From NCBI GenBank assembly GCA_017547885.1, contig JAFYOP010000010.1:1-64000 (forward strand): 64,000 nucleotides of DNA, read 5' to 3'. The first letter of the stretch is position 1. Each line of letters begins with the position of its first letter. This DNA comes from Clostridia bacterium (GTDB lineage Bacteria > Bacillota > Clostridia > Christensenellales > CAG-138). The position numbers and the translations under genes are program-made. Shown piece by piece: positions 21,101-48,028 of this stretch. The notes beneath the pieces are model-generated. The model ran no database searches. It was not told the DNA's origin and saw only the letters and a list, made by a program, of their open reading frames with translations.

Positions 21101-21235
21101 GTCGTAGAAGGTATAGGCGGGGGCGCCTTTACGCAGCTCTACGCTCTTTTCAAAGATGCGGTTCTGTTTCCAGAATTCCAGCGTCTCTTTTTCACGGGAT
21201 ACGAAATCCAGTGAAGTGGGAACCTTTTTGTACAT
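18113..21235 (-). CDS. ileS: Isoleucyl-tRNA synthetase (type 2 family)
   Basis: 1040 aa. Class I synthetase: HIGH motif as GKPHIGHVL near residue 54, and KMSKH (in GRKMSKHIGN). The editing domain carries TTTPWTLASNVAL. Length and the KMSKH variant fit the type-2 IleRS family (often mupirocin tolerant), not the shorter type 1 with a C-terminal zinc site. It charges tRNA-Ile. The start has AAGGAGAATC upstream. Expression is under a T-box leader at 21299-21560 that senses uncharged tRNA-Ile. Mupirocin tolerance is a family inference only. Confidence 0.97.
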   Translation of the reverse strand: MYKKVPTSLDFVSREKETLEFWKQNRIFEKSVELRKGAPAYTFYDGPPTANGKPHIGHVLTRAMKDIIPRYKTMQGYDVLRKAGWDTHGLPVELEVEKQLGLDGKEQIEEYGVIPFIDKCKESVWKYKSEWEVMSDRMGFWADMDDPYITYKDDYIESEWWALKTIHEKGLLYKGHKIVPYCPRCGTALSSHEVAQGYKDVKETSATVRFIVPDEENTYFLAWTTTPWTLASNVALCVNPSVVYVYAKVDNKETLILAKDLVSAVLEGHEVEIVKEVTGKELEYKHYKPLFECTFKAAGGKDAFFVMCDDYVTTTDGTGIVHCASAFGEDDYRVCKRYNLPFVQMVDTKGEMCGGTPWDGTFVKQADLPILMDLEKEGLLFAAPKFEHSYPFCWRCDTPLIYYARASWFIAMSQLRDKLIDYNRRINWLPENIKEGRMGNFLENVIDWGLSRERYWGTPLPVWMCDKCGKVHVIGSRKELDEMSGCGTDVELHKPYLDPITWECECGGTMRREPVVIDCWFDSGAMPFAQWHYPFENKEEFERRYPANFISEAIDQTRGWFYTLSAIAVCLFDSPSFLNCIVLGHVQDKEGRKMSKHIGNVVDPWVLLDKQGADAVRWYFYTSSMPWLPNRFSEEAVSESQRKFMGTFWNTYAFYVLYADIDGFDPTQHKLVRENLSPMDLWVLSRLNTLVGKVEGYLDELKMTEAGREMQLFMDDLSNWYVRRCRERYWGKDMTADKEAAYMTLYTVLNTMTLISAPFIPFMAEEMYQNMVRTVDKNAPESVHLCDWPKADASFINPELEANMAAVLDIVVLGRSARNSANIKNRQPIGTMYVQGGKLPDMYVSIIADELNVKKVEFVDDASSFITYRVKPQLKTLGPRYGKILPKINAYLAGEGIGNAVVAAHNAGENYKFELEGTQVLLSREDVLVSTEQSAGFVAVTEHDLSVVLDTNLTPELIDEGFVREIVSKVQTMRKEAAFEVTDHIALYHEGSARIEEIFAKYGEEIAADTLADSVAKGTAGYTKEWDINGETVTLSVEKK

Positions 21236-21759
21236 TCCTGATTCTCCTTGTGATGTTATGAATATTTTAAAGGTTTTTTCCGTCGCAAATAATTAAAAAT
21301 GCGCCCCGAAAATATCGGGACGCATGGAATGCGCGGTACCACCCGAGTTGGCGCAGAAAAGCCGCGCCCTCTCAATATGCCCCTGTAACGGTGGGCCTCC
21401 GGCCTTGGCTATGATTGCTTTCACCAAAGCGCTCCCGGGGGATGCGTATGGGCGGACATTGCCGCGGCTCTCTCACCGAAAACGAGCCGCTCTCTTGGGC
21501 ATCCAAACCACCGTGTGTCCCGGTCGTAGGTTTAATTATTGGAGTTTTTCAAGCGAAAAACCAATCAACCAATATTATATTATTGCTAAAGCCGTTTGTA
21601 AACCCTATTTTGTCCTTATTTCATCTTTAAAGTCACGGTTTTTTCACTTAATTTTGATTATTTAAGGTATGAATGGATAAGTTTTTGTGTTAATATGATG
21701 GGGATAGTTTTAACTCGCAAGTGGTATGCTTAGTTTAGGCATACCGGGGAGGTAATGAA
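21236..21759. other. Divergent control region between ileS and ftsH
   Basis: Beyond the T-box (21299-21560) this contains the AT-rich ileS promoter area at about 21560-21640 and the ftsH leader. Just before the ftsH ribosome site is a stem GGTATGC (21723-21729) / GCATACC (21739-21745). No gene lies in it. Confidence 0.6.
21299..21560 (-). promoter_or_regulatory. T-box leader of ileS
   Basis: On the minus strand, the invariant T-box element GGGTGGTACCGCG appears (its complement includes CGGTACCA at 21334-21341), followed by a terminator stem ATGCGTCCCGA / TCGGGGCGCAT (21299-21325) with a T-rich end. Upstream lies stem I with the AAGAGAGCGG distal region. A plausible AUC specifier lies at 21441-21443 beside a CCGGG-closing helix. 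T-boxes read through when the cognate tRNA is uncharged; this matches ileS directly downstream. Confidence 0.92.
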
Positions 21760-27610: not shown

Positions 27611-27860
27611 GTATATTGGCAATGATGCGAAACAGTAGGAAAAAGCCGGGTTAAGAGAGCCGCCGTAATGGTGAAAGGGCGGTACAGGGGCGCTTCCGAA
27701 GCTCGTCGCATGGCCACCGCACGTGAACATTTATTCAGTAGCGAGCGGCGCATGCCCGGCGTTAAAGGGGTGTCGAGTGGGCGGACTTCCGCCAACGAGA
27801 GTGGTACCACGGAGGCTGATCAGGCTTTCGTCTCTTGATGAGGCGAAAGTCTTTATTTAT
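27611..27860 (+). promoter_or_regulatory. T-box leader of leuS
   Basis: Stem I closes with ATGCGA (27625-27630) / TCGCAT (27706-27711). The AGTAG bulge motif is at 27634-27638, opposite a CTC leucine specifier at 27702-27704. The T-box GTGGTACCACGG is at 27801-27812, and the terminator stem CTTTCGTCTC / GAGGCGAAAG at 27825-27849 is followed by TCTTTATTT. Geometry and specifier agree with control by uncharged tRNA-Leu. Confidence 0.95.
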
Positions 27861-27895: not shown

Positions 27896-30310
27896 ATGGC
27901 AGAACGCTACGATCACGACAAAGTGGAACTGAAATGGCAAAAGATATGGGAGGACGCTCATTGCTTTGAGGCAAAGAACGACTACACCATGCCTAAGTTC
28001 TTCCCCCTTATTGAGTTCCCTTACCCTTCCGCACAGGGACTCCACGTTGGACATCCCCGTTCCAACACCGCTATGGACATACTTGCCCGTAAGCGCCGCA
28101 TGGAAGGCTACAACGTACTGTACCCCATCGGCTGGGATGCTTTCGGCCTGCCCACCGAAAACTATGCCATAAAGACCGGCGCCCATCCTGCCAAGGTCAC
28201 CTTTGAAAACGCAAACCGTTTCCGTCAGCAGCTCAAGCGCCTGGGCTTCAGCTTTGACTGGAGCCGCGAGATAAACACCACTGATCCCAGCTACTATAAG
28301 TGGACCCAGTGGATATTCCTTAAGCTCTATGAAAAGGGCCTTGCATACAAGGCTGAGATACCCATCAACTTCTGCACCTCCTGCAAGGTTGGCCTTGCAA
28401 ACGAAGAGGTGGTTGACGGCGTATGCGAGCGCTGCGGCGGCACCGTAATTCAAAAGGTTCGCAGCCAGTGGATGCTCAAAATAACCGAATACGCCCAGCG
28501 GCTTATCGACGATCTGGACGATCTGGACTTTATCGAGCGGGTCAAGATCCAGCAGAAGAACTGGATAGGCCGCAGCGAGGGCGCTGAGATAACCTTCCCC
28601 ATCGAGGGCTATCCCGAGGGCCTCAAGGTTTATACCACCCGCTGTGATACGCTCTTTGGTGCAACCTACATGGTAGTATCCCCCGAGCACCCAATAGTGG
28701 AAGCTATGAAGGATACCATTGAAAACATGGACGAAGTCCGCGCATATCAGCAGGCTGCTGCCCGCAAGAGCGATCTTGAGCGCTCCGAGCTGAACAAGGA
28801 CAAGACCGGCGTCCTGCTCAAGGGCCTTAAGGCTACCAATCCCGTAAACGATCAGCCCATCCCCGTATGGATCTCCGACTACGTACTCATGGGCTACGGC
28901 ACCGGCGCCATCATGGCAGTTCCCGCACACGATGAGCGCGACTGGGACTTTGCAAAGAAGTTTAATATGCCCATCATCGAGGTAGTAGCAGGCGGCCGCG
29001 ATGTTCAGGAAGAGGTTTATACCGATGTTGAAAGCGGTATACTTGTAAATTCCGGCTTCCTCAACGGCATGCATGTTAAGGATGCCATCGCCGCCATGAT
29101 AGACTGGCTGGAGGAAAAGGGACTTGGCACCCGCAAGGTAAACTACAAGCTCCGTGACTGGGTATTTACCCGTCAGCGCTACTGGGGCGAGCCTATCCCT
29201 CTGGTAAACTGCGAAAAGTGCGGCTGGGTACCCCTTCCCTATGAAGAACTGCCTCTGGTGCTGCCCGAAATAGAAGACTATCAGCCCACCGATGACGGTT
29301 CTTCCGCTCTGGCCCGCGCCACCGAATGGCTCAAGACCACCTGCCCCTGCTGCGGCGCTCCCGCTGTACGCGAGGCTGACACCATGCCCAACTGGGCTGG
29401 TTCCAGCTGGTACTTCCTGCGCTATTGCGATCCTCACAACGATAAGGAGCTGGCCAGCAAGGAAGCCCTGGAATACTGGATGCCCGTAGACTGGTACAAC
29501 GGCGGTATGGAGCACACCACACTGCATCTGCTGTACTCCCGCTTCTGGCATAAGTTCCTCTACGATATCGGCGCAGTGCCCACCAAGGAGCCCTATCAGA
29601 AGCGCACCAGCCACGGCATGATACTGGGCGAAAACGGCGAAAAGATGTCCAAGTCCAGGGGCAACGTTGTAAATCCCGATGATGTTGTAAACGAAATGGG
29701 CGCCGACACCTTCCGTATGTACGAGATGTTCATGGGCGCATTCGATCAGCCTATTCCCTGGAGCACCACCGGTGCCCGCGGCTGCCGCAGGTTTATCGAC
29801 CGTGTGTGGCGCATGCAGGATATGGTAAGCGACGTTGAGGGCATCCGTCCCGAGATGATGGCAACGGTACACGGCACCATCAAGAAGGTAACCGAGGACT
29901 ATGAGGCAATGAAGTACAACACTGCCATCGCCGCCATGATGACCTGGGTAAACGAAATATACAACGCAGGCTCTGTTACAAAGGAAGAGTTCCACACCCT
30001 GCTGACCCTGCTCAACCCCGTTGCTCCCCACATTACCGAGGAGCTGAACGAGATACTGGGCTACACTCAGCCCCTGTATGCCACCGCATGGCCCACCTGG
30101 GATGAGAATGCTCTGGTAAAGAACAGCATTGAGTACGGCGTACAGGTAAACGGCAAGATCCGTGCCCGCATAGAGCTTCCCGCCGACATGGCAAAGGAAG
30201 AGGTAGAGGCTGCTGCCAAGGCTCATGCCGATGTTGTTCCCTTCCTGGAGGGCAAGACTGTCCGCAAGGTAATAGTTGTAAAGAACATCGTAAACATCGT
30301 AGTAGGCTAA
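27896..30310 (+). CDS. leuS: Leucyl-tRNA synthetase
   Basis: 804 aa. Class I synthetase: HVGH in [10 protein letters not shown] (about residue 46), KMSKS in [11 protein letters not shown] (about 580). Editing domain region [21 protein letters not shown]. Zinc-binding-type cysteines [22 protein letters not shown] near 160-185. The C-terminal domain ends with NIVNIVVG. It charges tRNA-Leu; length is normal for Firmicutes. GGAGG precedes the ATG. Controlled by its T-box; its own terminator lies at 30324-30358. Confidence 0.98.
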
Positions 30311-31321: not shown

Positions 31322-31990
31322 ATGCGTATACTTGTGGCGGAAGACGAAAGGGATCTTAATAACGTTATATGCAATAAGCTCAGGGCTTCGGGATACAGTG
31401 TTGATGCCTGCTTTAACGGCGCAGACGCGCTGGAGTATATACTGGCAAGCCGTTATGACGGTGTGCTGATGGATATAATGATGCCGGGTATGGACGGCTA
31501 TGAGGTGGTTCAGCGGCTGAGGGAGAAAAATGACCTGACGCCGGTGCTTTTCCTTACCGCCCGGGACAGCACCGAGGATATAGTAAAGGGCCTTGATATG
31601 GGCGCCAATGACTACCTTATAAAGCCCTTTTCCTTTGACGAGCTGCTTGCCCGCATAAGGGTCATGACCCGCAGCCTGCCTGCCCATACCAGCGTCTATA
31701 CCGTGGCGGACCTTACTGTGGACTGTGCTTCCCGCACGGTAAAGCGGGGAAATGACATCATTGACCTTTCTCCAAAGGAATTTGCTCTGCTTGAGTATAT
31801 GATAATAAACAAGGGCGTGGTGCTCAGCCGGGAGGCCATTGAGGACCACATATACGACGTGGATTATGAGGGGGGCTCAAACGTGGTAAACGTGTATATA
31901 CGCTTCCTGCGCCGTAAAATAGACGAACCCTATGATACCAAGCTTATTCATACTGTCCGGGGTGCGGGCTATGTGCTCAGGGAGGAATAA
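31322..31990 (+). CDS. OmpR-family response regulator
   Basis: 222 aa. Receiver domain with acidic pocket VAEDERD, phosphorylation D51 in VLMDIMMPGMDG, conserved T (LTAR) and K (LIKPF). The C-terminal winged helix contains LSPKEFALLEYM and RRKIDEP. It is a DNA-binding transcription regulator. Its TAA overlaps the ATG of the kinase gene by 1 bp (TAATG), so they are translationally coupled. Target genes unknown. Start has GGAG about 10 bases upstream. Confidence 0.94.
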   Translation: MRILVAEDERDLNNVICNKLRASGYSVDACFNGADALEYILASRYDGVLMDIMMPGMDGYEVVQRLREKNDLTPVLFLTARDSTEDIVKGLDMGANDYLIKPFSFDELLARIRVMTRSLPAHTSVYTVADLTVDCASRTVKRGNDIIDLSPKEFALLEYMIINKGVVLSREAIEDHIYDVDYEGGSNVVNVYIRFLRRKIDEPYDTKLIHTVRGAGYVLREE

Positions 31991-33336
31991 TGAATAAAAT
32001 ATCCGTAAAGTTCATAATAACCTTCTGGTTTACCATGCTGATGGTGGCCATTTCCGCGCTGGTAATGGTATTTATGCTGACCGCCAGCCGCCTTACCATG
32101 GAGCAGGACATGCAGCGCCGCATAGTGGACGGCGTAAAGGATAATCGTAATGACGTTAAATACAACGATGACACAATACAGGCGGGCGGCGGTTTCAGAT
32201 ACTATGTAAACGGCGTATACTGCGTAATATACGACGGCAATTACAACAAAATAGCAGGGGAGTTTCCCGAAGGATTTGAAACCAACGCGGAGTTTCAGGA
32301 CGGTATACTGCGCACCACACAATATAACGGAAAAAGTTACTACATATACGACCGCTATATAACCTTTAAAAACGGAAAACATGCATGGATAAGGGGGGTA
32401 TCCCTTACAACCACCACAGTTACCGTGGCCAGCACCGTTGCAAAGGTCGCGTCCTATGTTCTGCCCGGGGTGGTTATAGCATCTGCAATCGGCGGATATA
32501 TCATAACAAACCGCGCGTTGAAGCCCATTGAAAAGGTTGCAAGGGTATCCGATGAAATATCTGAGGGAAGAGACCTTTCCCGCAGATTGAATATGCAGAA
32601 CGAAAATATGGAAGCTTATATGCTGGCTCAGAGCTACGACAAGATGCTGGAGCGACTGGAACGGTCATTTGATATGGAAAAGCAATTCACGTCAAATGCG
32701 TCCCACGAGCTGCGCACCCCTACGGCGGTGATAATATCCCAGTGCGAGTACGCTCTGGAGCATGATAAAACCCCCGAGGACTATCGGGAGACAATTGGAA
32801 TAATAAAGCGGCAGGCCCGCCGCATGAACGCAGTGGTATCCCAGCTGCTGAATTTTGCAAGGATGGAGCAGGGCACTCAGAAGGTTCGCCTTGAGCATGC
32901 AAACCTCAGCGATATTGTGGAGGCGGTGTGCGAGGAGCAGGAGGAGCTGAATGAAGCGGTTACCTTTGAAAAGGACATAGAGCCTGATATTGAAGCCACC
33001 GTGGACGTTACCATGATAACCCGCATGATGGAAAACCTGATAACCAACGCCTGCAAGTTTGGGGGCAGGCACATAAAGGTTGGCCTCTATCGGGAGAACG
33101 GCGAGATATGCATATTCGTCAGGGATGACGGAATAGGTATAGCTAAGGAAGACCAGCCCAAGGTATGGGAGCGATTCTGGCAGGCAGACAGCTCCCGCAC
33201 TGATAACAAGGGGGGCAGCAACGGTCTTGGCCTTGCAATGGTAAAGCAGATAGCAGAGCTGCACGGCGGCGGGATGAGCCTTGAAAGCGCTCCCCGTCAG
33301 GGCAGTACCTTTACCTTCCGCATGAGGGAGATATAA
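31990..33336 (+). CDS. Membrane histidine kinase
   Basis: 448 aa. Helix 1 at about 8-31, an extracytoplasmic sensor of about 115 residues rich in aromatic residues (no recognisable ligand fold), helix 2 at about 150-172 and a HAMP region to about 225. HisKA with H239 in SNASHELRTPTA; HATPase with NLITNACKFG, DDGIGIAKEDQPKVWERFW and GSNGLGLAMVKQIAELHGG. It phosphorylates the regulator encoded just before. The stimulus is unknown. Terminator follows. Confidence 0.94.
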   Translation: MNKISVKFIITFWFTMLMVAISALVMVFMLTASRLTMEQDMQRRIVDGVKDNRNDVKYNDDTIQAGGGFRYYVNGVYCVIYDGNYNKIAGEFPEGFETNAEFQDGILRTTQYNGKSYYIYDRYITFKNGKHAWIRGVSLTTTTVTVASTVAKVASYVLPGVVIASAIGGYIITNRALKPIEKVARVSDEISEGRDLSRRLNMQNENMEAYMLAQSYDKMLERLERSFDMEKQFTSNASHELRTPTAVIISQCEYALEHDKTPEDYRETIGIIKRQARRMNAVVSQLLNFARMEQGTQKVRLEHANLSDIVEAVCEEQEELNEAVTFEKDIEPDIEATVDVTMITRMMENLITNACKFGGRHIKVGLYRENGEICIFVRDDGIGIAKEDQPKVWERFWQADSSRTDNKGGSNGLGLAMVKQIAELHGGGMSLESAPRQGSTFTFRMREI

Positions 33337-35716: not shown

Positions 35717-37039
35717 TTATACAGCGAAGGTCAGTACGTACTGGGCGATGAACAGCAGGGAGATCACGTACAGGAATACGGGAACTTCCTTTGCCTTGCC
35801 GCGGGCCAGCTTGATGAGGGTGTAGGAGATGAAGCCGAAGCCGATACCATCGGAGATAGCATAGGCGAAGGGCATGATGGCGATGGTGAGGAAGCAGGGT
35901 ACCGCAACCTCAATATCCTTCCAGTCGATGTCGGCGGCGTTGCCCAGCATCAGCACGCCCACGATGATAAGGGCGGGAGCGGTGGCGGCGCTGGGGATAA
36001 TGCCGGCGATGGGGCCAAAGAAGAATGCTGCCAGAACAAACAGGATACCTACGGTGAAGCTGGTGAGGCCGGTACGGCCGCCTTCGCTGATACCGGTGGA
36101 GCTTTCTACGAAGGTGGTAACGGTGGAGGTGCCCAGAACTGCGCCGGCCATGGTGGCTACTGCATCGGCGATGAGGGCCTTGTCGCCGGTGGGCAGGTTG
36201 CCGTCTTCGTCCAGCATCTTGGCAGCCTTTGCAGTACCGATGAGGGTACCTACGGTGTCAAAGCAGTCGCAGATGGCGAAGGTGATGATGGCGGTCAGCA
36301 GAGCCAGTACGCCGTGGCCCAGCAGGCCGTTGAAGCCCTCGGTAAATACCTTGCCGAATACGGGAGCCAGGGTGGAGAAGCCGCTGAAGGTTATGCTCTC
36401 GGGGAAGGTAGTTACGCCGAAGGGGATACCTACGATGGTGGTGATGATGATGCCGAGGAACAGGGCGCCCTTTACCTTATAGGCCATAAGAACCGCGGTG
36501 ATAACCAAGCCGATGAGGGCTACCAGAGCGGGACCGCCGGTGATGGCGCCCAGATCCAGCAGGTTGTTATTGGCGGTTACGATGCCTACGTTCAGCATGC
36601 CGATGAGGGCGATGAACAGGCCGATACCGGCGCTGATGGCGCTCTTGAGGGAAGCGGGAATAGCTTCGATTATCTTGGAGCGCAGGGGGGAGATGGAGAC
36701 AAAGAAGAAAATCATACCGGACAGAAGAACTATGGCCAGTGCGTTCTGCCAGGTATAGCCCATGCCGAAGCATACGGAATAGGTGAAGAATGCATTCAGA
36801 CCCATGCCGGGAGCCTGCGCAAAGGGAACGTTTGCAAGGAACGCGGTGAGGAGTGTGCCCAGGGCCGCAGCAAGGCAGGTGGCCATCATTACGGCGTTAA
36901 AGTCCATGCCTGCTTCGCTGAGGAAGCCGGGGTTGACGAAGATAATGTACGCCATGGCGAAGAAAGTGGTAACGCCGGCTACTATCTCAGTCTTTACCGT
37001 AGTGTTGTGTGCTTTGAGTTTGAACAGTTTTTCCAACAT
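35717..37039 (-). CDS. NCS2 family purine permease (PbuG/GhxP-like)
   Basis: 440 aa with about 12-14 helices. NCS2 AzgA-branch motifs: TTFFAMAYIIFVNPGFLSEAG, FAQAPGMGLNAFF, AICDCFDTVGTLIGTA and TVTTFVESSTGISEGGRTG. The branch transports adenine, guanine or hypoxanthine with protons. It precedes, on the opposite strand, the purine-degradation genes ssnA-ygfK-xdh, so it probably feeds that pathway. GGAGG lies before the ATG. The promoter region upstream (37040-37127) is short. Confidence 0.92.
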   Translation of the reverse strand: MLEKLFKLKAHNTTVKTEIVAGVTTFFAMAYIIFVNPGFLSEAGMDFNAVMMATCLAAALGTLLTAFLANVPFAQAPGMGLNAFFTYSVCFGMGYTWQNALAIVLLSGMIFFFVSISPLRSKIIEAIPASLKSAISAGIGLFIALIGMLNVGIVTANNNLLDLGAITGGPALVALIGLVITAVLMAYKVKGALFLGIIITTIVGIPFGVTTFPESITFSGFSTLAPVFGKVFTEGFNGLLGHGVLALLTAIITFAICDCFDTVGTLIGTAKAAKMLDEDGNLPTGDKALIADAVATMAGAVLGTSTVTTFVESSTGISEGGRTGLTSFTVGILFVLAAFFFGPIAGIIPSAATAPALIIVGVLMLGNAADIDWKDIEVAVPCFLTIAIMPFAYAISDGIGFGFISYTLIKLARGKAKEVPVFLYVISLLFIAQYVLTFAV

Positions 37040-37127: not shown

Positions 37128-37766
37128 TTACTGCTGCTGGGCGGATGTGTCCAGATAGGAGTAAAGTGTGTATTTGCTTATGCCGAAATGCTTTGCGATT
37201 TTGTCGCCGGACTTTGTGATGAGCATTGCGCCTGCGTCGTTGAGGAAGTGTATTGCCTTTACCTTGTCTTCCTTGTTCATCATGGCAACGGGCTTGCCTA
37301 TGAGCTTTACGGACTGCTCAAGCAGATCGTCCAGCAATTCGTTTACGTTGGTGGGGATGCGCTCGGGCTCATCCGCTGCTGTGGGCTGAACCATGGCGTT
37401 TACTATGGACTGGGCCATCATAAGGTCAGTCATGTCATAGTTTATGGCAAATATGCCGGTGGGCTTGCCGGTCTCATCTTTAACATATATGGTACTGGAA
37501 CGAAGTATGCGGCCGTCATGTGTTTTGGTAAGGTAATTGTAATGGTCGGGGATATCTTTTTTGCCTTCCTTCATTGCCTCCAGTACAACATGGCTGGGGC
37601 CGGCCTTTATGTTTCGCTTGGATACATGGCCGTTTTCCAGGGTAACTATCATATCCTCAGGGTCTTCCCGGGTAAGATCGTATACCACCACCTCGCAGTT
37701 GCTGCCAAACTGTGCGGAGATGGCCAGCGCAATGCGGCTCAGGATGTCTATCGTGCTGTTATGCAT
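37128..37766 (-). CDS. YheO-like PAS-HTH regulator
   Basis: 212 aa from the ATG at 37766 (GGGAGG upstream; longer frames reach into the AT-rich divergent promoter). N-terminal PAS-like region with CEVVVYDLTREDPEDM, ILRSSTIYVKDETGKPTGIFAINYDMT, typical of YheO/DUF2083-type sensors, and C-terminal helix-turn-helix (GDKIAKHFGISKYTLYSYLD). It is transcribed divergently from ssnA, whose promoter region contains two ACATAAAACA repeats. It probably controls the purine cluster in response to a purine or redox signal (inference). Confidence 0.85.
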   Translation of the reverse strand: MHNSTIDILSRIALAISAQFGSNCEVVVYDLTREDPEDMIVTLENGHVSKRNIKAGPSHVVLEAMKEGKKDIPDHYNYLTKTHDGRILRSSTIYVKDETGKPTGIFAINYDMTDLMMAQSIVNAMVQPTAADEPERIPTNVNELLDDLLEQSVKLIGKPVAMMNKEDKVKAIHFLNDAGAMLITKSGDKIAKHFGISKYTLYSYLDTSAQQQ

Positions 37767-37918: not shown

Positions 37919-37947
37919 TTGCCTCACATAAAACACTGTGATAAAAT
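37919..37947 (+). promoter_or_regulatory. Promoter of ssnA-ygfK-xdh with flanking direct repeats
   Basis: TTGCCT (37919-37924), exactly 17 bases, TAAAAT (37942-37947). The decamer ACATAAAACA occurs at 37926-37935 in the spacer and again at 37956-37965 around the expected start, 30 bp apart, suggesting regulator binding sites on one face of the helix. Confidence 0.55.
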
Positions 37948-37997
37948 AATGCCAGACATAAAACATATCATAAAAACGGCTGTAAGGGAGTGCTTCG

Positions 37998-38036
37998 CGC
38001 GCGGGCTTAAACATAATGTTTAACTGCGCGTTTTTG
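37998..38036 (+). terminator. Leader terminator (attenuator candidate) upstream of ssnA
   Basis: Strand-specific hairpin: CGCGC (37998-38002) / GCGCG (38026-38030) with inner TTAAAC / GTTTAA, followed by TTTTTGTTT. It lies about 50 bases after the expected start and 94 bases before the ssnA ATG. On the minus strand it lacks a T run. Confidence 0.7.
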
Positions 38037-38129
38037 TTTATCGTCAGCTTCAATTCTTCCCTTTGGCCCATAGCTTACCTTATTTTATTAAATTAAAAAA
38101 TCACATCATCAATAATAAGGAGGACGTAT

Positions 38130-39461
38130 ATGTATCTTATTGCTAACGGAAAAGTTATCACCAGAGACCCTGCAATGCCCTACATCGAAAACGGCGGCGT
38201 GGCTGTAAAGGGTACCGAAATAATAGAGCTGGGCGAAACCGCCGCCCTTAAGGCGAAGTATCCCGATGCAGAGTTTGTAGATGCCAAGGGCATGGTAATA
38301 ATGCCTGCCTTCATCAATATCCATTCTCATATATATTCCGCTCTTGCAAGGGGCCTGTCCATAAAGGGCCACAACCCCACCAATTTCTATGAAATACTGG
38401 ACGGCATGTGGTGGGCCATTGACCGCCGCCTTACCCTTGAGGGCACCAAGTACAGCGCATATACCACCTTTATCGACAGCATAAAGACCGGCTGTACAAC
38501 CCTCTTTGACCACCACGCAAGCTATGCGGAAATTCCCGGCAGCCTCTTTGAAATAGAAAAGGTAGCCAAGGAGCTGGGCGTTCGCGCCTGCCTGTGCTAC
38601 GAGGTCAGCGACCGCGACGGCGAGGAAAAGTGCAACCAGGCCATAAAGGAAAACGGCGACTTTATCCGTCACTGTGCCAAGGAAAATGACCCCATGATAA
38701 AGGCCATGTTCGGCGGCCATGCCCTCTTTACCATATCCGACAAGACCTTTGAGAAGATGGTAAAGGAAAACAACGGCATGACCGGCTTCCATATCCATGT
38801 ATCCGAAGGCCTCAACGACGTATACGACTCTGCCCTCAACTATGGCACCCGCAGCGTAAACCGCCTGCTGAACCACGGCATACTGGGTCCCAAGACCATG
38901 CTGGGCCACTGCATACACCTTAACGCCGCCGAAATGGACATCATCAAGGAAACCGGCACCATGGTATGCAACAACCCCGAATCCAACATGGGCAACGCCG
39001 TAGGCTGTGCTCCCGTCCTTCAGATGATACAGAAGGGCATCACCGTGGGCCTTGGCACCGACAGCTACACCTTCGATATGCTGGAGAGCCTGAAGGTAGC
39101 CCTTATCATACAGCGGCACAATGCCTGCATGCCCAACGTGGCCTGGTGTGAAGTAACCGATATGCTCTTCAAGAACAATCCCAAGATCTGTGCCCAGTAC
39201 TTTGACCAGCCTCTTGGCGTGCTGAAGCCCGGCGCGGCGGCGGATGTTATCGTAATGGATTACAAGACCTTCACTCCCTTCGGCGCAGACAATATTGACG
39301 GCCACATGATCTTCGGCATGACCGGACGCCAGTGCGAAACCACCATGTGCAACGGCAAGCTGCTCATGAAGGACAGAAAGCTCCTCTGCTGCGATGAGGA
39401 GGAGATCAACGCCAAGACCATGGAGGCCGCCAAGGACCTTTGGGGCCGCATAAACGCATAA
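38130..39461 (+). CDS. ssnA: SsnA, putative aminohydrolase of selenium/purine metabolism
   Basis: 443 aa. Amidohydrolase fold: metal motif NIHSHIYSALARG (about 64-76), GFHIHVSEG, MLGHCIHL, and VGLGTDSYTFDM (final metal aspartate). This group (SsnA) is related to guanine deaminase/chlorohydrolases and always occurs with ygfK and xdh. It probably deaminates a purine or pyrimidine-like ring. It starts the operon (22-bp gap to ygfK). AAGGAGGACG precedes the ATG. Confidence 0.93.
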   Translation: MYLIANGKVITRDPAMPYIENGGVAVKGTEIIELGETAALKAKYPDAEFVDAKGMVIMPAFINIHSHIYSALARGLSIKGHNPTNFYEILDGMWWAIDRRLTLEGTKYSAYTTFIDSIKTGCTTLFDHHASYAEIPGSLFEIEKVAKELGVRACLCYEVSDRDGEEKCNQAIKENGDFIRHCAKENDPMIKAMFGGHALFTISDKTFEKMVKENNGMTGFHIHVSEGLNDVYDSALNYGTRSVNRLLNHGILGPKTMLGHCIHLNAAEMDIIKETGTMVCNNPESNMGNAVGCAPVLQMIQKGITVGLGTDSYTFDMLESLKVALIIQRHNACMPNVAWCEVTDMLFKNNPKICAQYFDQPLGVLKPGAAADVIVMDYKTFTPFGADNIDGHMIFGMTGRQCETTMCNGKLLMKDRKLLCCDEEEINAKTMEAAKDLWGRINA

Positions 39462-39483: not shown

Positions 39484-42441
39484 ATGAGCGAAAGAATGAC
39501 ACCCATCCCCTTTAAACAGCTTATGACCTGGATACGGGACGAGTACGATAAGCGCGGTACCGTGTTCGGCGTAAATGCCCCCTATGTAAAGAAAAACGAT
39601 AAGGTGCTCCCCCTCTTCAAAGAAAAGCTGGAGACTCCCTTCGGCCCCGCCGCAGGCCCCAATACCCAGCTGGCCCAGAATATCGTAGCCGCCTACTATG
39701 CGGGCGCCCGCTTCTTCGAGCTTAAGACTGTGCAGAAGATGGACGGCGACGACCTTGCCGCCTGCATAAACCGCCCCTGCATCTGGACCAAGGATGAAGG
39801 CTACAACTGTGAATGGTCCACCGAGCTGTACGTTCCTCAGGCCTTTGACGAATACGTAAAGGCATGGTTTGCTATTCGTATCATCAGCCGCGTATACGGC
39901 CTCGGCGCTCCCGATGGATTTATGTTCAACATGAGCGTAGGCTATGACCTTGAGGGCGTAAAGACCCCCAAGATGAACGCTTTTATCGACGGTATGCGTG
40001 ATGCATCCAATACTCCCATATTCAAGGAGTGCATGGAGGTGGGCAAGGAGCTTTATCCTGAGCTTGCGGATTACATTGCCGCAACCCCCGCCCGCGTATG
40101 CGACGGCGTTACCGTATCCACCCTCCACGGCTGCCCTCCGGGAGAGATAGAGGCCATCGCCAGCTACCTCATCACCGAAAAGAACCTGAATACCTTTGTA
40201 AAGTGCAATCCCACCATACTGGGCTATGAGTTCGCAAGGGCCCGCCTTGATTCCATGGGATATGACTATATCGCCTTTGACGACAGGCACTTCCGGGAGG
40301 ACCTGCAGTACTGCGACGCGGTGCCCATGTTCCATCGCCTGAAGGCGCTGGCGGAAAGCAAGGGGCTGGAATTTGGCCTTAAGCTTTCCAATACCTTCCC
40401 CGTAGACGTAAAGGCAAACGAGCTGCCCAGCGAGGAAATGTACATGAGCGGACGCTCACTGTATCCCCTCACCATCGAAATGGCAAACCGCTTTGCCAAT
40501 GAGTTCAAGGGTCAGCTCCGCCTGTCCTACAGCGGCGGCGCAGATTTCTTCAACATCAAGGCTCTCTTTGAGGCGGGCATATGGCCCATCACCATGGCCA
40601 CCACCATACTCAAGCCCGGCGGATACGGCCGCATGGTACAGCTTGGCAAGCTCCTTGATGAGTGCGAATTCAAGGCCTTTGACGGCGTGGACTACAAGGC
40701 CGTTGCAAAGCTTTCCGAGGAGGCTGTTTCCAACAAGTATCACGTAAAGCCCGTAAAGGAAGCCCCCGAGCGCACCATGGGCAAGGATAAGGTACTGCCC
40801 CTTACCGACTGCTTCAAGGCGCCCTGCAAGAGCGGCTGTCCCTTCGGTCAGGATATTCCCGAGTACATTGAGCTTTGCGGCAAGGGCCTGTTCCTTGAGG
40901 CGCTCAAGGTTATTACCGATAAGAACCCCCTGCCCTTCATCACCGGCACGATATGCGCACATCACTGCATGGATAAGTGCATGCGCAATCACTATGAATC
41001 CCCCGTGGATGTTCGCGGCACCAAGCTTGCGGCGGCAGAGGCAGCATATGATGAGCTGATGGCCCTTACCGAGCCTGTGGAGCCCATCCTGGGCAAGCTG
41101 GCGGTTATCGGAGGCGGCCCCGCAGGCCTTGCGGCTGCATACTTCGCAGCAAAGGCCGGCTATGCGGTGACCGTATTTGAAAAGCGCGAAACCCTTGGCG
41201 GTATCGTACGCAATGTGATCCCCGAATTCCGCATTGGCGCAGATGCCATTGCAAAGGACGTTGAGTTCATAAAGAAGAACGGCGTAGAGTTCGTAATGGG
41301 CAAGGAAGCCCCCGATGCAGCCGCTCTTAAGGCCGATGGCTATGACAAGATCATACTGGCCTGCGGCGCAGAGAAGAAGGGCGTCCTTGCTATTGAGGGC
41401 AACGTTATCAACGTTATCGACTTCCTGTATGCCTTCCGCAATGACGGAGAGCTGAACCTTGGCAGGAATGTTGCCGTGGTTGGCGGCGGCAATACCGCAA
41501 TGGATGCTGCCCGCGCCGCAAAGCGTGTTCCCGGCGTTGAGAAGGTAACTCTGGTTTATCGCCGCAATCGCAAGTATATGCCCGCTGACCTTGAGGAGCT
41601 GGAGCTGGCGATTGAGGACGGCGTAGAGTTCATGGAGCTGGCCGCCCCTGTAAAGCAGGCGGATGGCAAGCTTATCTGCAATAAGATGAAGCTGGGCGAT
41701 ATGGATGCTTCCGGCCGCCGCAGCCCCGTTGAGACCGGCGAGACCGTTGAGGTGGATGCGGACAGCGTAATCGCAGCCGTCGGCGAAAAGGTAGATCCGG
41801 AGCTCATGGCAAAGTACGGCATTGCAGAACATAAGAGGGGCGAGCGCGGGTATGGCGATGTATACGTGATCGGCGACGCAAGCCGCGGCCCCGCTACTGT
41901 GGCCGAGGCAATAGCAGACGCAAAGTTCGCAGTTGAAAACATTACCGACAAGGCTATACTGGCTGAGATTCCTGCTGAGGCATATGCTGACAAGGGCGCA
42001 GCGCTGCTCCGCAAGATGAACCTGATGGAGAAGAACAAGTGCGAGGCAGACCGCTGCATCAGCTGCAGCAGGGTATGCGAATGCTGCGTATCCGTATGCC
42101 CCAACAGGGCCAATGTTTCCATTGCGGTACCCGGCTATGAAATGAGCCAGATACTCCACGTTGACTATATGTGCAATGAGTGCGGCAACTGCGCACACTT
42201 CTGCCCCTATACCAACGGCAGGCCTTACAAGGATAAGTTCACCCTCTTTGCCAACGAGGCTGACTTTGAGGACAGCGAAAACAGCGGCTTTATGGTAGTA
42301 TGCCCTGCCTGCCCCAAGGTAAAGGTAAGGCTCAACGGCCAGGTTAAGGAATATACCCTTGACGGTACCAGCGACCTTGACCGCAGCCTTGAGGACCTGA
42401 TGCTGACCGTTATCAGGGATTACTCCTATCTCATTGGCTGA
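39484..42441 (+). CDS. ygfK: YgfK, putative flavin/iron-sulfur oxidoreductase (selenate reductase-like)
   Basis: 985 aa, three parts. N-terminal dihydroorotate-dehydrogenase-like barrel (LETPFGPAAGPNTQLAQNI, VTVSTLHGCPPGEIEA). Middle GltD-like region: cysteine cluster CKSGCPFGQDIPEYIELCGK, FAD motif VIGGGPAGLAAAYFA, NAD(P) motif VVGGGNTAMDAARAA. C-terminal two [4Fe-4S] sites: CISCSRVCECCVSVCP and CNECGNCAHFCP. It is the electron-transfer partner found with Xdh in selenium-dependent purine breakdown. A stem-loop at 42460-42491 separates it from xdh. Confidence 0.94.
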   Translation: MSERMTPIPFKQLMTWIRDEYDKRGTVFGVNAPYVKKNDKVLPLFKEKLETPFGPAAGPNTQLAQNIVAAYYAGARFFELKTVQKMDGDDLAACINRPCIWTKDEGYNCEWSTELYVPQAFDEYVKAWFAIRIISRVYGLGAPDGFMFNMSVGYDLEGVKTPKMNAFIDGMRDASNTPIFKECMEVGKELYPELADYIAATPARVCDGVTVSTLHGCPPGEIEAIASYLITEKNLNTFVKCNPTILGYEFARARLDSMGYDYIAFDDRHFREDLQYCDAVPMFHRLKALAESKGLEFGLKLSNTFPVDVKANELPSEEMYMSGRSLYPLTIEMANRFANEFKGQLRLSYSGGADFFNIKALFEAGIWPITMATTILKPGGYGRMVQLGKLLDECEFKAFDGVDYKAVAKLSEEAVSNKYHVKPVKEAPERTMGKDKVLPLTDCFKAPCKSGCPFGQDIPEYIELCGKGLFLEALKVITDKNPLPFITGTICAHHCMDKCMRNHYESPVDVRGTKLAAAEAAYDELMALTEPVEPILGKLAVIGGGPAGLAAAYFAAKAGYAVTVFEKRETLGGIVRNVIPEFRIGADAIAKDVEFIKKNGVEFVMGKEAPDAAALKADGYDKIILACGAEKKGVLAIEGNVINVIDFLYAFRNDGELNLGRNVAVVGGGNTAMDAARAAKRVPGVEKVTLVYRRNRKYMPADLEELELAIEDGVEFMELAAPVKQADGKLICNKMKLGDMDASGRRSPVETGETVEVDADSVIAAVGEKVDPELMAKYGIAEHKRGERGYGDVYVIGDASRGPATVAEAIADAKFAVENITDKAILAEIPAEAYADKGAALLRKMNLMEKNKCEADRCISCSRVCECCVSVCPNRANVSIAVPGYEMSQILHVDYMCNECGNCAHFCPYTNGRPYKDKFTLFANEADFEDSENSGFMVVCPACPKVKVRLNGQVKEYTLDGTSDLDRSLEDLMLTVIRDYSYLIG

Positions 42442-42513: not shown

Positions 42514-45087
42514 ATGGCAACCTTTACAGTAAACGGAAAACAGGTTACCGTCGATAAAAACCAAAAGCTTATGCGCTATCTCAGGGATGAGCTTCGCCTG
42601 CTGTCGATAAAGGATGGCTGCAGCGAGGGCGCATGCGGCACCTGTACCATAATCATAGACGGCAAGGCGGTAAAGTGCTGCGTTCAGCAGACAGACCGCA
42701 TGGAAGGCAAAAATATCATCACGGTGGAAGGCCTGTCGGATTTTGAAAAGCAGGTTTATACCTATGCCTTTGGCGAGGCGGGCGCAGTACAGTGCGGCTT
42801 CTGCATCCCCGGCATGGTTATGTGTGCCAAGGCTCTTCTGGATGTTAATCCTAACCCCACCGAGGAAGAGATACGCTATGCCATACGCAACAATATCTGC
42901 CGCTGCACAGGCTATGTTAAGATAGTCAAGGCAATTGAGCTTGCGGCTGAGTGCATCCGCAACGGCAGCGTGCCTGAGCATTATGATGACTTTGCTCTGG
43001 GCTCCCGTGCCCACAGGGTGGATGTTGAGGAAAAGGTGCTGGGCTATGGCGAATACTGCGATGATATTTACATGGAGGGCATGATCTACGCAAGCGCCGT
43101 AAGGTCAAAGTACCCCAGAGCCCGCGTGCTGTCCATTGATACCGCCGCTGCAAAGGCGCTGCCCGGCGTGGTTGGCGTGTTTACCGCCGCGGATATCCCC
43201 GGAGATATTAAGGTTGGCCATCTTAAAAAGGACTGGGATGCGCTGATCGCCGTGGGCAGCATTACCCACTATCTTGGTGATTCCATCTGTATAGTTGCGG
43301 CGGAAACTCCGGAAATACTGGAGCAGGCCAAGAAACTGGTAAACGTGGAATACGAGGTGCTTACCCCTGTGCGCTCTCCCTATGAGGCTATGGCAGAGGG
43401 TGCGCCCGTTGTGCACGAAAACGAGAATCTGCTCAAGGAGGGAAATCTCCTTGCTTATAAGCACGTATCCCGCGGCAATGCAAAGGAAGCTATTGCCCGC
43501 TCCAAGTATGTGCTGACCGAAAAATACTCCACCCCCTATACCGAGCATGCATTCCTTGAGCCGGAATGTGCCGTGGCGTTCCCGGATGGAGACGGCGTAA
43601 AGATTTATTCCTCCGACCAGAGCGTATACGATACCCAGCACGAGATAGTGCCCATGCTGGGCCTGATGCTGGAGCAGGTATGCGTTGAGAATAAGCTGGT
43701 GGGTGGCGGCTTTGGCGGCAAGGAAGACGTTACCGTGCAGCATCACGCGGCGCTGGTTGCCTACCTTACAAAGCGCCCCGTAAAGGTAAAGCTTACCCGG
43801 GCGGAGAGCCTGCTGATACACCCAAAGCGCCATCCCATGGATATGGAATTTACCCTTGGCTGTGATGAAAACGGTATAATTCAGGGCGTTTATGCCGAGG
43901 TAATAGCGGACACCGGCGCATATGCCTCCCTTGGCGGCCCTGTATTGGAGCGCGCATGTACCCATGCGGCAGGCCCCTATAATTATCAAAACTTTGAGAT
44001 CCACGGCCGGGCATACTATACCAACAATCCTCCCGCAGGCGCTTTCCGCGGCTTTGGCGTAACCCAGACCTGCTTTGGCATGGAGAGCCTGCTTACCAAG
44101 ATGGCAGATACCATAGGCATCAGCCCCTGGGAGATTCGCTATCGCAATGCCATTCGCCCCGGCCTGGAGCTGCCCAACGGCCAGATAGTTGACAATTCCA
44201 CCGGCCTTGCGGAGACACTTGAGGCGGTAAAGGATGTATACGAAAACTCCAAATACGCTGGTATTGCCTGCGCAATGAAGAACGCAGGCGTAGGTGTAGG
44301 CGTTATAGACGTTGGCCGCGTAAAGCTGCTGGTGGAGGGCGGTAAGCTCCACGTATTGGCAGGCGCGACCTGTATAGGTCAGGGCCTTGCTACGGTGCTT
44401 GTGCAGATAGTTCACGAAACCACAGGGCTTCCCCGTGAAAAGATAGTGATCGAAGCCCCCAACAGCTACCGCACTCCCGATTCCGGTACCACCTCCGGCT
44501 CCCGCCAGACCCTGCTTACAGGCGAAGCCGCAAGGCGTGTATGCGTGCTGTTCAATGAGGCGGCAGAGGGCAAGACCCTTGAAGAGATGGAAGGCAGAGA
44601 CTTCTTTGCGGATTACTATCCTCCCACAGACCTGCTGGGCTCTGATAAGCCCCATCCCGTCAGTCACGTTGCCTATGGCTATGCCACTCAGGTTGCGGTG
44701 CTGAAGGAGGACGGCACGCTGGATAAGATAGTTGCAGCCCATGCTGTGGGCAAGGCGGTAAATCCTATGTCCGTAGAGGGTCAGATAGAGGGCGGCGTAA
44801 TAATGTCCACAGGCTTTGCCCTTACCGAAGAATATCCCGTTGTGGATTGTGCGCCCACTGCCAAGTATGGCACTCTTGGCCTGTTCAAGGCAGATAAGGC
44901 GCCCAAGGTAGAGGCCATAATCGTAGAAAAGCCCGGCGTAGAGGGTGCATACGGCGCAATAGGTATAGGCGAGATAACATCCATACCCACCGCTCCCGCC
45001 ATTTCCGAGGCATATCTCAGGTATGATGGTATCCGACGCACATCTCTGCCCCTGGACAACACACCATACAGCAGGAAAAAGAAATAA
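42514..45087 (+). CDS. xdh: Selenium-dependent xanthine dehydrogenase, Fe-S and Mo subunits fused
   Basis: 857 aa. N-terminal [2Fe-2S] domain: CSEGACGTCTIIIDGKAVKCC (about 35-55), then the second cluster CGFCIPGM and ICRCTGY (about 95-130). The large molybdopterin domain follows from about 155: GFGGKEDVTVQHHAALVAYL, PPAGAFRGFGV, GSTSGS-like TTSGSRQTLLTG, and the catalytic glutamate region AIGIGEITSIP. There is no FAD domain, as in bacterial selenium-dependent hydroxylases where electrons leave via YgfK-type partners. Selenium is a labile cofactor, not selenocysteine; no in-frame TGA is seen. It probably oxidises xanthine or hypoxanthine. Confidence 0.94.
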   Translation: MATFTVNGKQVTVDKNQKLMRYLRDELRLLSIKDGCSEGACGTCTIIIDGKAVKCCVQQTDRMEGKNIITVEGLSDFEKQVYTYAFGEAGAVQCGFCIPGMVMCAKALLDVNPNPTEEEIRYAIRNNICRCTGYVKIVKAIELAAECIRNGSVPEHYDDFALGSRAHRVDVEEKVLGYGEYCDDIYMEGMIYASAVRSKYPRARVLSIDTAAAKALPGVVGVFTAADIPGDIKVGHLKKDWDALIAVGSITHYLGDSICIVAAETPEILEQAKKLVNVEYEVLTPVRSPYEAMAEGAPVVHENENLLKEGNLLAYKHVSRGNAKEAIARSKYVLTEKYSTPYTEHAFLEPECAVAFPDGDGVKIYSSDQSVYDTQHEIVPMLGLMLEQVCVENKLVGGGFGGKEDVTVQHHAALVAYLTKRPVKVKLTRAESLLIHPKRHPMDMEFTLGCDENGIIQGVYAEVIADTGAYASLGGPVLERACTHAAGPYNYQNFEIHGRAYYTNNPPAGAFRGFGVTQTCFGMESLLTKMADTIGISPWEIRYRNAIRPGLELPNGQIVDNSTGLAETLEAVKDVYENSKYAGIACAMKNAGVGVGVIDVGRVKLLVEGGKLHVLAGATCIGQGLATVLVQIVHETTGLPREKIVIEAPNSYRTPDSGTTSGSRQTLLTGEAARRVCVLFNEAAEGKTLEEMEGRDFFADYYPPTDLLGSDKPHPVSHVAYGYATQVAVLKEDGTLDKIVAAHAVGKAVNPMSVEGQIEGGVIMSTGFALTEEYPVVDCAPTAKYGTLGLFKADKAPKVEAIIVEKPGVEGAYGAIGIGEITSIPTAPAISEAYLRYDGIRRTSLPLDNTPYSRKKK

Positions 45088-45219: not shown

Positions 45220-46581
45220 ATGAATATCGTAATAGTGGGAGACGGCAAGGTAGGCTATACCATCACTGAGCGGCTTTCACGGGAAAATCATGATATCACT
45301 GTTATAGATAAGCGGCCTGCGGCGCTGAATAATACCATGAACCTTCAGGATGTAAGTTGCATCGAAGGAAATGGTGTAAGCCATATCGTGCAGACAGAGG
45401 CAGGAGTGCCCAAGGCAGACCTGCTTATCGCCGCAACCAGCGCAGATGAAATGAATATGCTGTGCTGCATGGTGGCAAAAAAACTGGGAGCAAAGCATAC
45501 CATAGCCCGTGTCCGTGACCCTCAGTATCAGCAGCAGATGTTCTTCCTTAAGGATGAGCTGGGTCTTTCCATGACGGTTAACCCGGAGCAGGCTGCTGCG
45601 GCGGAAATATCAAGGCTGCTGCGGTTTGCCTCCGCAATGAAGGTAGAACCCTTTGCAAAGGGACGCATAGAGCTGGTGGAGTTTAAGGTGAGGGAGGGCA
45701 GTCCCCTTCATGGCATGAGGCTGGCGGACTTTTACGGCCATTTCAGGCTGAAGGTGCTGGTATGCGCTGCCTGCCGCGAGGATGAGGTATTTATCCCCAA
45801 GGGTAACTTTGTAATGCAGACGGGGGATAAGCTTTCCATACTTGCCGCTCCCAAGGATGTAAGCGCATTCTTCAGGGCCGCAGGCACATTCAAACGCAGG
45901 GCGAAGGACGTAATGATAGTTGGCGGCGGCAAGATAGCCTATTATCTTACCCGCCAGCTGATAGAGAGCGGCATACATGTAAAAATAATCGAAAGGGACG
46001 AGGATACCTGCGAAAAGCTTTGCGAGCTGCTGCCCAAGGCGCAGATCCTCCATGGCGATGGCACGGATCACGAGCTGCTCCACGAGGAGGGCATTGACAA
46101 TACCGATGCACTTATCGCCCTTACCGGCATAGATGAAGAAAACATAATCCTTTCCATGTACGCAAATTCCCTAAACGTGGATAAGGTAATTACCAAAGTA
46201 AACAATTCCCGCCTTGCGGATATGGTGTCCAGTGTTGGGGTGGAGAGCCTTATCTCTCCCAAGGATATCGCCGCAAACAGCATAATAAGCTATGTCCGCG
46301 CCATGACCAACGCAACCGGCAGCAATGTTGAAACCTTGCACCGCATAGCGGACGGAAACGCAGAGGCGCTGGAATTCAGGGTGAGGGAGGGCAGCCGCTG
46401 TGTGGGCATACCTCTTAAAGATCTGCCCATAAAGGACAATGTGCTCATAGGCGCTATAATCCGCGGCGGCACCTGCATCATTCCCGGTGGTAATGACTGC
46501 ATACAGGCAGGGGATTCCGTAATAGTGGTTACCACCATAAGCGGCCTTGAGGAGCTGAATAAGATATTAAAGGAAGCATAA
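45220..46581 (+). CDS. trkA: Trk potassium transporter regulatory subunit TrkA
   Basis: 453 aa, a duplicated RCK protein. First Rossmann/NAD domain VIVGDGKVGYTITERL (residues 3-18), a TrkA-C domain near 140-220, then a second Rossmann MIVGGGKIAYYLTRQL and second TrkA-C. It sits on the cytoplasmic face and gates TrkH in response to nucleotides (and in many Firmicutes c-di-AMP via TrkA-C). It is directly upstream of trkH (4-bp gap). A c-di-AMP link fits the darA gene in this window. Confidence 0.95.
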   Translation: MNIVIVGDGKVGYTITERLSRENHDITVIDKRPAALNNTMNLQDVSCIEGNGVSHIVQTEAGVPKADLLIAATSADEMNMLCCMVAKKLGAKHTIARVRDPQYQQQMFFLKDELGLSMTVNPEQAAAAEISRLLRFASAMKVEPFAKGRIELVEFKVREGSPLHGMRLADFYGHFRLKVLVCAACREDEVFIPKGNFVMQTGDKLSILAAPKDVSAFFRAAGTFKRRAKDVMIVGGGKIAYYLTRQLIESGIHVKIIERDEDTCEKLCELLPKAQILHGDGTDHELLHEEGIDNTDALIALTGIDEENIILSMYANSLNVDKVITKVNNSRLADMVSSVGVESLISPKDIAANSIISYVRAMTNATGSNVETLHRIADGNAEALEFRVREGSRCVGIPLKDLPIKDNVLIGAIIRGGTCIIPGGNDCIQAGDSVIVVTTISGLEELNKILKEA

Positions 46582-46585
46582 GCGT

Positions 46586-48028
46586 ATGAACTATCGTATG
46601 ATAGCAAGGATATTGGGCTACGCCATGCTGACGGAAGCAGTATTGATGCTTCCTTCGGTTGTTATTGCCCTGCTCCATGGCGAGTCCATATTGGGCTTTT
46701 GTGCGGCTATAGGATGCCTGATCGCATTGGGATTTACCACCATCAGCCGCAAGCCGGAGCATAATGACATCTATGCCCGCGAAGGCTTTGTTACGGTGTC
46801 CCTTTGCTGGATAGTTCTGTCCGTATTCGGAGCGCTGCCATTCTATGTGGAGGAAATAACCACAACATTTATAGACGCGCTTTTTGAGACTGTGTCCGGC
46901 TTTACCACCACCGGCGCATCCATACTGTCTTCTGTGGAGAGCGTGCCCTATGGCATACTGTTCTGGCGCAGCTTTACCCACTGGATAGGGGGCATGGGCG
47001 TGCTGGTGTTTATGATGGCAGTGCTGCCTATGGCGGATAACCGCAATATGCACATAATGCGGGCAGAAGTACCCGGCCCCGTGGTTGGCAAACTGGTGCC
47101 CAGGGCAAAGGACAGCGCCCTGATACTGTATGGAATATATGTTGCGCTTACCTTAATAGAGGTCGTGTTCCTGTTATTTGGTGGCATGCCGCTGTTTGAT
47201 GCCTTTGTTCACGCAATGGGTACGGCGGGCACCGGTGGCTTTGGCATAAAGAACAACAGCGTGGCCTATTATAACAGCGCCTATATAGATATTGTTATCA
47301 GCGTATTCCTTATATTGTTCTCAATAAACTTTAACCTGTATTTCTTTATACTGCTGGGCAATCTTCGCCCCGTATTCAAAAACGAGGAACTCAGGTGCTT
47401 CCTGTGCATAGTCGGCGCATCGGTACTGGCAATTGCGCTGAACATAAACCACCTGTATGGAAGCTTTGGCGAGTCTTTGAGATATTCGCTGTTTCAGGTC
47501 AGCTCCATAGTTTCCACGGCGGGCTTTTCCACGGCGGACTTTAACCAATGGCCGGAGCTTTCTCGGGCGCTGCTGGTAGGGCTTATGTTTATAGGCGCCT
47601 GTGCAGGCAGCACCGGCGGCGGCATCAAATTATCCCGCGTTATGATACTGGCAAAATCCTCCTCCTGTGAGATACGCCGAATGATGCATCCCCGCTCTGT
47701 AAACCTTGTAAAGCTTGAGGGAAAAACCGTATCCGACGAGGTGGTGCATAATGCGCAGGTATTCTTCCTGCTGTATATGTTTATCCTGGCGGCTTCCACG
47801 GTGCTGATAGCCTGTTTTGACGAGTGTGACTTTACCACTAACCTTACCGCCGTAATAGCCTGTATCGGCAATATAGGCCCCGGACTTGAGGCGGTAGGCC
47901 CAATGGGCAATTTCGCTTTCTTCTCTCCCGTATCCAAGCTTGTGCTGATAGTGAACATGCTGGTAGGAAGGCTGGAGATATTCCCCATGATAATGCTGTT
48001 CCACCCCAATACCTGGAAGAGGGTATAA
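46586..48028 (+). CDS. trkH: Trk potassium uptake protein, channel subunit TrkH
   Basis: 480 aa with about ten helices. Four selectivity-filter-like pore loops of the TrkH/KtrB family: TTGASIL (first), GTGGFGIKN (second), TAGFST (third) and GNIGPGLEAVG (fourth). It imports potassium together with TrkA. AGGAAGCATAAGCG precedes the ATG. A terminator-like hairpin follows at 48043-48075. Confidence 0.95.
   Translation: MNYRMIARILGYAMLTEAVLMLPSVVIALLHGESILGFCAAIGCLIALGFTTISRKPEHNDIYAREGFVTVSLCWIVLSVFGALPFYVEEITTTFIDALFETVSGFTTTGASILSSVESVPYGILFWRSFTHWIGGMGVLVFMMAVLPMADNRNMHIMRAEVPGPVVGKLVPRAKDSALILYGIYVALTLIEVVFLLFGGMPLFDAFVHAMGTAGTGGFGIKNNSVAYYNSAYIDIVISVFLILFSINFNLYFFILLGNLRPVFKNEELRCFLCIVGASVLAIALNINHLYGSFGESLRYSLFQVSSIVSTAGFSTADFNQWPELSRALLVGLMFIGACAGSTGGGIKLSRVMILAKSSSCEIRRMMHPRSVNLVKLEGKTVSDEVVHNAQVFFLLYMFILAASTVLIACFDECDFTTNLTAVIACIGNIGPGLEAVGPMGNFAFFSPVSKLVLIVNMLVGRLEIFPMIMLFHPNTWKRV

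Follow-up and report, generated by a model that had tools for sequence, protein, structure and literature searches.

An ssnA RNA that shares bases with its terminator and probably switches on an ssnA-ygfK-xdh operon in a Clostridia bacterium

The leader of the ssnA-ygfK-xdh operon in a stretch of Clostridia bacterium DNA (contig JAFYOP010000010.1, positions 1 to 64,000; all 64,000 nucleotides are here called the window) almost certainly belongs to the ssnA RNA family, RF03031, and the explanation that best accounts for the whole leader, which we consider moderately probable, is that this RNA is an ON switch of transcription whose signal is an oxopurine of the pathway. The computed basis for this reading is family membership, gene linkage, base-pair covariation, and the physical overlap of two folds. 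The ssnA RNA (RF03031) was reportedly described by Weinberg et al. in 2017, and the family is already catalogued; added here are the window member, the ON logic, and the tandem copies. A first-pass annotation of the same DNA had entertained a "small new riboswitch": the RNA is a candidate of the small-riboswitch kind, and it is not new. The features that bear on the argument, in window coordinates, are as follows.

35717-37039, minus strand: xanthine/uracil-type permease family protein (PF00860, 133.1 bits; cut-off 27)
37128-37766, minus strand: YheO-like PAS_6/HTH_22 regulator, divergent (domain matches; probable start ATG 37766)
37919-37947, plus strand: predicted sigma-70-type promoter, TTGCCT-17-TAAAAT, with TG before the -10 (9/12 matches; position conserved in relatives)
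37970-38017, plus strand: ssnA RNA motif (RF03031), candidate aptamer (Rfam covariance-model match)
37978-37981, plus strand: P1 5' strand, partner 38004-38007 (Rfam structure; the outermost pair covaries, an inner pair covaries in tandem copies)
37982-37989, plus strand: conserved 8-nt bulge GUAAGGGA (Rfam structure and conservation)
37990-37993, plus strand: P2 5' strand, partner 37999-38002, loop 37994-37998 (Rfam structure; C-G to U-A in 1/64)
37997-38031, plus strand: intrinsic terminator hairpin, -16.2 kcal/mol (folding; motif-overlap test)
37999-38007, plus strand: P2 3' strand, G38003, and P1 3' strand, common to motif and terminator (Rfam structure, hairpin overlap)
38031-38035, plus strand: terminator U-run, TTTTT (sequence)
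38130-39461, plus strand: ssnA, the putatively controlled gene (NF005540, 652.6 bits, cut-off 444; TIGR03314, 580.3 bits, cut-off 455.5)
39484-42441, plus strand: ygfK (TIGR03315, 1309 bits; cut-off 835.3)
42514-45087, plus strand: selenium-dependent xanthine dehydrogenase family protein, XDH (TIGR03311, 1304.7 bits; cut-off 830.45)

On the plus strand, 37970-38017 scores 48.2 bits with the RF03031 covariance model, whose gathering score is 37.3 (E = 3.9e-10 in a search over the whole window). The leader resembles the family in sequence, fold, cis position, and linkage to ssnA, with nothing arguing against membership; the match is the only one in the window's own genome, and the leader holds a single copy of the motif. 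RF03031, whose Rfam type is Cis-reg only, is alone over its gathering score in the leader: purine, THF, and molybdenum-cofactor riboswitch models are unmatched, the NMT1 model gives no match at gathering nor at E up to 10, and relaxing the limit to E 10 adds a single listing, Entero_CRE (16 bits vs 55), on the opposite strand. The literature that we searched yielded no ligand for RF03031.

Across genomes, RF03031 was matched in 28 of 103 from the taxonomic family (27 over the cut-off), in 6 of 391 from the class (1 over the cut-off, the window's own), in 4 of 398 from the phylum (2 over the cut-off, the window's own and one other), and in none of 14 control genomes, E. coli among them. Seven sub-threshold matches from distant genomes (L029-L033, L035, and L036) were rejected as chance-like, all seven being without a match to the nine window reference proteins in the fetched stretch. 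Scanning named genomes with a pattern brought in 68 loci, titled Oscillospiraceae, other Clostridia, or Bacillota, and the combined sample comprises 97 motif loci (some genomes appear twice) with 81 distinct leaders; conservation at the fixed pattern positions is partly imposed, because the 68 pattern loci cannot vary there. By tblastn, ssnA lies downstream of the motif on the same strand in all 97 loci including the window, its start 74-249 nt from the motif core. Calls based on open reading frames had given ssnA as the first gene in 78 loci and ygfK in 10, with no gene called in the other 9; the cause was the choice of start codon, and tblastn resolved every locus. As ssnA is over its cut-off in 63 of the 103 family genomes, the RNA occurs in fewer genomes than the gene, and among the best-scoring 30 ssnA loci 2 have the RNA and 28 do not. 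Degenerate motif copies were sought in these 28 RNA-less leaders with our own model R1 and none was found, the single 11-bit match (L117, E 1.2) being attributable to chance.

Within 150 nt upstream of ssnA, 77 of the 81 RNA-bearing leaders have a terminator-like hairpin, vs 1 of the 28 RNA-less ones. Control by premature termination, as the first-pass annotation proposed, is likely; the comparison of related leaders that it recommended finds the hairpin conserved. Such a hairpin might also sense nothing and serve only to attenuate constitutively, or to end antisense or upstream transcription. This would suit the window hairpin, which alone barely beats shuffles, and the divergence of the upstream gene, which leaves no plus-strand gene upstream that is seen to need a terminator; it is nonetheless very unlikely, given that a 28-nt core is nearly fixed over 81 distinct leaders, with covarying stems and always before ssnA, and that RNA and terminator are jointly absent from 27 of the 28 RNA-less leaders.

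The promoter that the first-pass annotation read from the sequence is present. It is not significant alone, its 3 kb holding 8 promoter-like sites vs 3.9 +/- 2.1 in shuffles; a promoter at this place is supported because relatives carry promoter-like sites before the motif. A site with at least 8/12 matches lies in the 75 nt before the motif in 72 of 80 distinct leaders (10 of 80 for a control stretch further upstream), and the -10 is placed 23-26 nt before the motif core in 43 of these 72. For the window, the scan of relatives chose an overlapping, equal-scoring site, CTCACA-16-AATAAT, 28 nt before the motif. The claimed hairpin and T-run also stand, 94 nt before the first gene (G38036 to the ssnA ATG at 38130), and family-model scores bear out the ssnA-ygfK-xdh genes behind this promoter-proximal terminator. 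The window hairpin is unimpressive alone, and its reality rests on the cross-genome comparison: a simple terminator scan of the window did not list 37997-38031, the 93-nt leader folds with z -0.76 relative to shuffles (47 of 200 as good), an equally stable hairpin appears in 1 of 20 shuffles of the downstream part, and single-sequence folding is not significant as proof of structure.

The window terminator is constructed with the 3' halves of motif helices P2 and P1, and therefore the motif and terminator folds exclude each other, with seven terminator pairs seizing motif-helix bases. The first-pass annotation had looked for a sensor upstream of the hairpin, an idea that finds no support: the candidate sensor overlaps the hairpin, which uses the sensor's 3' half. 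Nor does the rival structure that it proposed, AAGGGA paired with TCCCTT, hold up, since the exact partner is found in 1 of 81 leaders (the window's own) where 2.5 are expected from shuffles; the AAGGGA letters are present in the window, inside the conserved bulge of the ssnA motif. The 81 leaders fall into three groups: 24 are of the window type, whose terminator uses the 3' half of the motif itself (class A), 39 carry CTATCAC downstream of the motif (class B), and 18 belong to neither. Seizure, defined as the capture of at least three motif-helix pairs by a hairpin of -14 kcal/mol or better, was found in 38 of the 42 leaders outside class B vs 15.6% of shuffles, so that a mutually exclusive expression platform is seen in these 38, the window's leader among them. 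The four exceptions have a short U-run (L025), a distant hairpin (L026), or branched terminators (L047 and L078) that are beyond scoring by a hairpin search. In the window type it is the 3' strands that are seized, whereas the Gemmiger/Fournierella type loses the 5' strand and, with it, the conserved bulge.

The class B leaders do not have this overlap directly. A terminator of -14 kcal/mol or better is present in 37 of the 39, and among hairpins of -12 kcal/mol or better none overlaps the motif core in any of them. Two further pairings lie between: UGRUAG/CUAUCA has bases in common with P1 and overlaps CACUC/GAGUG, which in turn overlaps the terminator. The UGRUAG/CUAUCA pairing is preserved in 98.3% of cells and the CACUC/GAGUG pairing in 96.9%, with little covariation because these stretches hardly vary. 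One could guess at a relay by which they link motif to terminator; when the motif was forced in two class B leaders (L039 and L042), the terminator still formed. The link between motif and terminator in the 39 class B leaders is indirect, and weaker than in the 42 direct-overlap leaders.

Because the motif fold and the terminator cannot coexist, whichever half is used, the predicted direction of control is ON. In the absence of the signal, bases on the 3' side of P2 and P1 would pair with downstream sequence to form the intrinsic terminator, and the operon would be mostly off; were the motif held folded, with P1, P2, and the conserved bulge in place, these bases would be occupied, the terminator would be blocked, and polymerase would read into ssnA-ygfK-xdh. 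We regard ON control by such competition as very probable on the model of the two folds, and stabilization of the motif by a small molecule as likely. The energetics are demanding. With the motif imposed, the window's leader lies 8.7 kcal/mol above its minimum free energy (-9.8 vs -18.5 kcal/mol), and median costs are 10.3 kcal/mol for the 24 class A leaders, 5.1 for the 39 of class B, and 17.5 for 17 of the others. Costs this high mean that switching would need strong binding or co-transcriptional trapping; 8.7 kcal/mol is within reach of tight ligands or of such trapping. The forcing cost is a real burden, heavier for the mixed class with its median of 17.5.

The fold itself, a P1-bulge-P2 arrangement, is maintained by covariation in relatives. 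Of the 81 leaders, 64 were aligned, 17 being omitted because they duplicated another leader in the aligned region or were truncated by a contig end. The P1 pair 12-41 is AU in 37 sequences, GU in 20, GC in 3, UA in 3, and UG in 1, with no breaks, and the covariation score of 0.198 (0.142 in shuffles) was reached by none of 500 shuffles. Slid controls match the true structure on some double-change counts (28 cells at an offset of +3 vs 27), the P2 pair 27-33 changes on both sides in a single sequence of the 64 (C-G to U-A), four of the ten motif pairs are invariant in the 64 aligned leaders, and outer P1 pairs are broken in 18 and 35 of the 64. The support thus rests on few pairs, because the core pairs are mostly fixed and 68 loci come from a pattern that fixes them. 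The best single support for P1 comes from tandem copies. Five Gemmiger/Fournierella-like ssnA leaders (L041, L047, L071, L078, and L094) carry two ssnA motifs 116-169 nt apart, each then followed by its own terminator-like structure, and the P1 pair G13-C40, which is G-C in 64/64 aligned sequences, made up of single and downstream copies, is A-U in 5/5 upstream copies. Tandem riboswitches are a known general class, which these five loci resemble; the window differs in its single copy. In another leader, L034, a degenerate partial copy, GCTGCAAGGAAGTGCTATGCGC, without the 3' half, lies about 50 nt upstream of the motif and is missed by model R1.

The covarying stems also bear on leader-peptide attenuation, for which the window offers a six-codon frame from GUG 37990, GTGCTTCGCGCGCGGGCTTAA (V-L-R-A-R-A-stop), preceded by a purine-rich stretch. 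We think this extremely improbable: in the 81 leaders the same-frame stop comes at anywhere from 6 to 72 codons, with none within 80 codons in 11 of them, and it is the stems that covary instead. A leader-peptide attenuator was accordingly rejected, no conserved short frame with its stop near the terminator being found in the 81 leaders.

The loop and bulge of the motif are strongly conserved, and the bulge at 37982-37989 is probably part of the recognition site. Such conservation would also be expected of a protein site, and a regulator gene adjoins the operon in the window, so the motif might be bound by an antiterminator protein rather than by a small molecule. We judge this unlikely: the 10 proteins scanned around the operon contain no RNA-binding antiterminator domain, and the PAS_6 and HTH_22 domains of the neighboring regulator suggest DNA binding. 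A YheO-like regulator divergent from ssnA and within 300 nt was seen in 22 of the 97 motif loci, and hence is not tied to the RNA; it was matched in 0 of the 28 RNA-less ssnA loci. The window's regulator could act at the same promoter region.

If a small molecule does hold the motif folded, the operon offers a guide to its identity. A reductive urate pathway was published in 2025 (PMC12507026), in which the E. coli and C. difficile enzymes act in sequence: XdhD converts urate to yanthine by reduction, YgfK or UacX together with SsnA then opens yanthine, and HyuA and others finish (PMC12507026). The ssnA-ygfK-XDH operon resembles this pathway as there described, and the XDH homologue at 42514-45087 may have an XdhD-like role. 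The E. coli uricolytic cluster, ygfK-ssnA-ygfM-xdhD, has homologous pathway genes (PMC12507026) in another order, and E. coli was among the control genomes without an RF03031 match. In the window's own genome, matches to hydantoinase and YgeY pass their cut-offs on contigs other than this one, and no diaminopropionate ammonia-lyase is over its cut-off in this assembly, which is 86% complete. Gene order elsewhere is ssnA, ygfK, hydantoinase, XDH in L071 (Fournierella massiliensis) and ssnA, ygfK, XDH in L144; L146 has a 472-aa frame between ygfK and XDH, and L145 has no XDH downstream within the stretch examined. Several other features were noted in the window: trkA and trkH (45220-48028, plus strand) closely after xdh; a two-component response regulator and histidine kinase pair (31322-33336, plus strand); and two T-box leaders, one at 27613-27838 (plus strand; 99.4 bits, gathering 93) just before leuS at 27896, the other at 21313-21536 (minus strand; 94.8 bits, gathering 93) preceding a 1040-aa frame at 18113-21235 (minus strand).

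By analogy with the reductive urate pathway, urate or yanthine would be our guess for the ligand. A substrate-induced ON switch fits a breakdown operon, and urate and yanthine are then the obvious candidates; as a tentative order we would place urate first, followed by yanthine (2,8-dioxopurine) or xanthine. That the ligand is a pathway oxopurine at all seems to us just on the probable side. The same RNA and terminator could instead respond to a non-oxopurine ligand, either a selenium or molybdenum-cofactor compound needed for the selenium-dependent XDH or a ring-opened intermediate (UMH or 5UDU). This is rather improbable, though the operon does encode a selenium-dependent molybdenum hydroxylase family member, and SsnA, whose gene always heads the operon, acts once yanthine has been reduced (PMC12507026); the divergent xanthine/uracil-type permease points to purine supply, and no other Rfam family is over its gathering score in the leader, which consequently has no known molybdenum-cofactor riboswitch. 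The closest functional relative of the ssnA RNA is the NMT1 motif, a xanthine riboswitch that binds xanthine at about 3.7 uM and uric acid at about 25 uM (PMC7373994). The two are alike in having a small hairpin, a conserved internal bulge, and linkage to purine oxidation genes (PMC7373994). They differ in sequence model and in the sign of control: NMT1 is reported there as an OFF switch that probably acts on translation (PMC7373994), whereas the ssnA RNA is an apparent ON switch of transcription.

With the pathway enzymes described in 2025, the ligand of RF03031 can now be guessed from chemistry. A wider reading, which we offer as possible rather than probable, is that ssnA RNAs are a riboswitch class activated by urate or yanthine that induces anaerobic urate breakdown in gut Oscillospiraceae and their relatives; one small aptamer would then have been joined to three or more unrelated terminator layouts as these evolved, and double copies would sharpen the response. 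If a urate-activated RNA of this kind does exist in gut bacteria, it would offer a genetic means of acting on the removal of urate by microbes, a matter of interest in gout, and would be a ready-made urate sensor.
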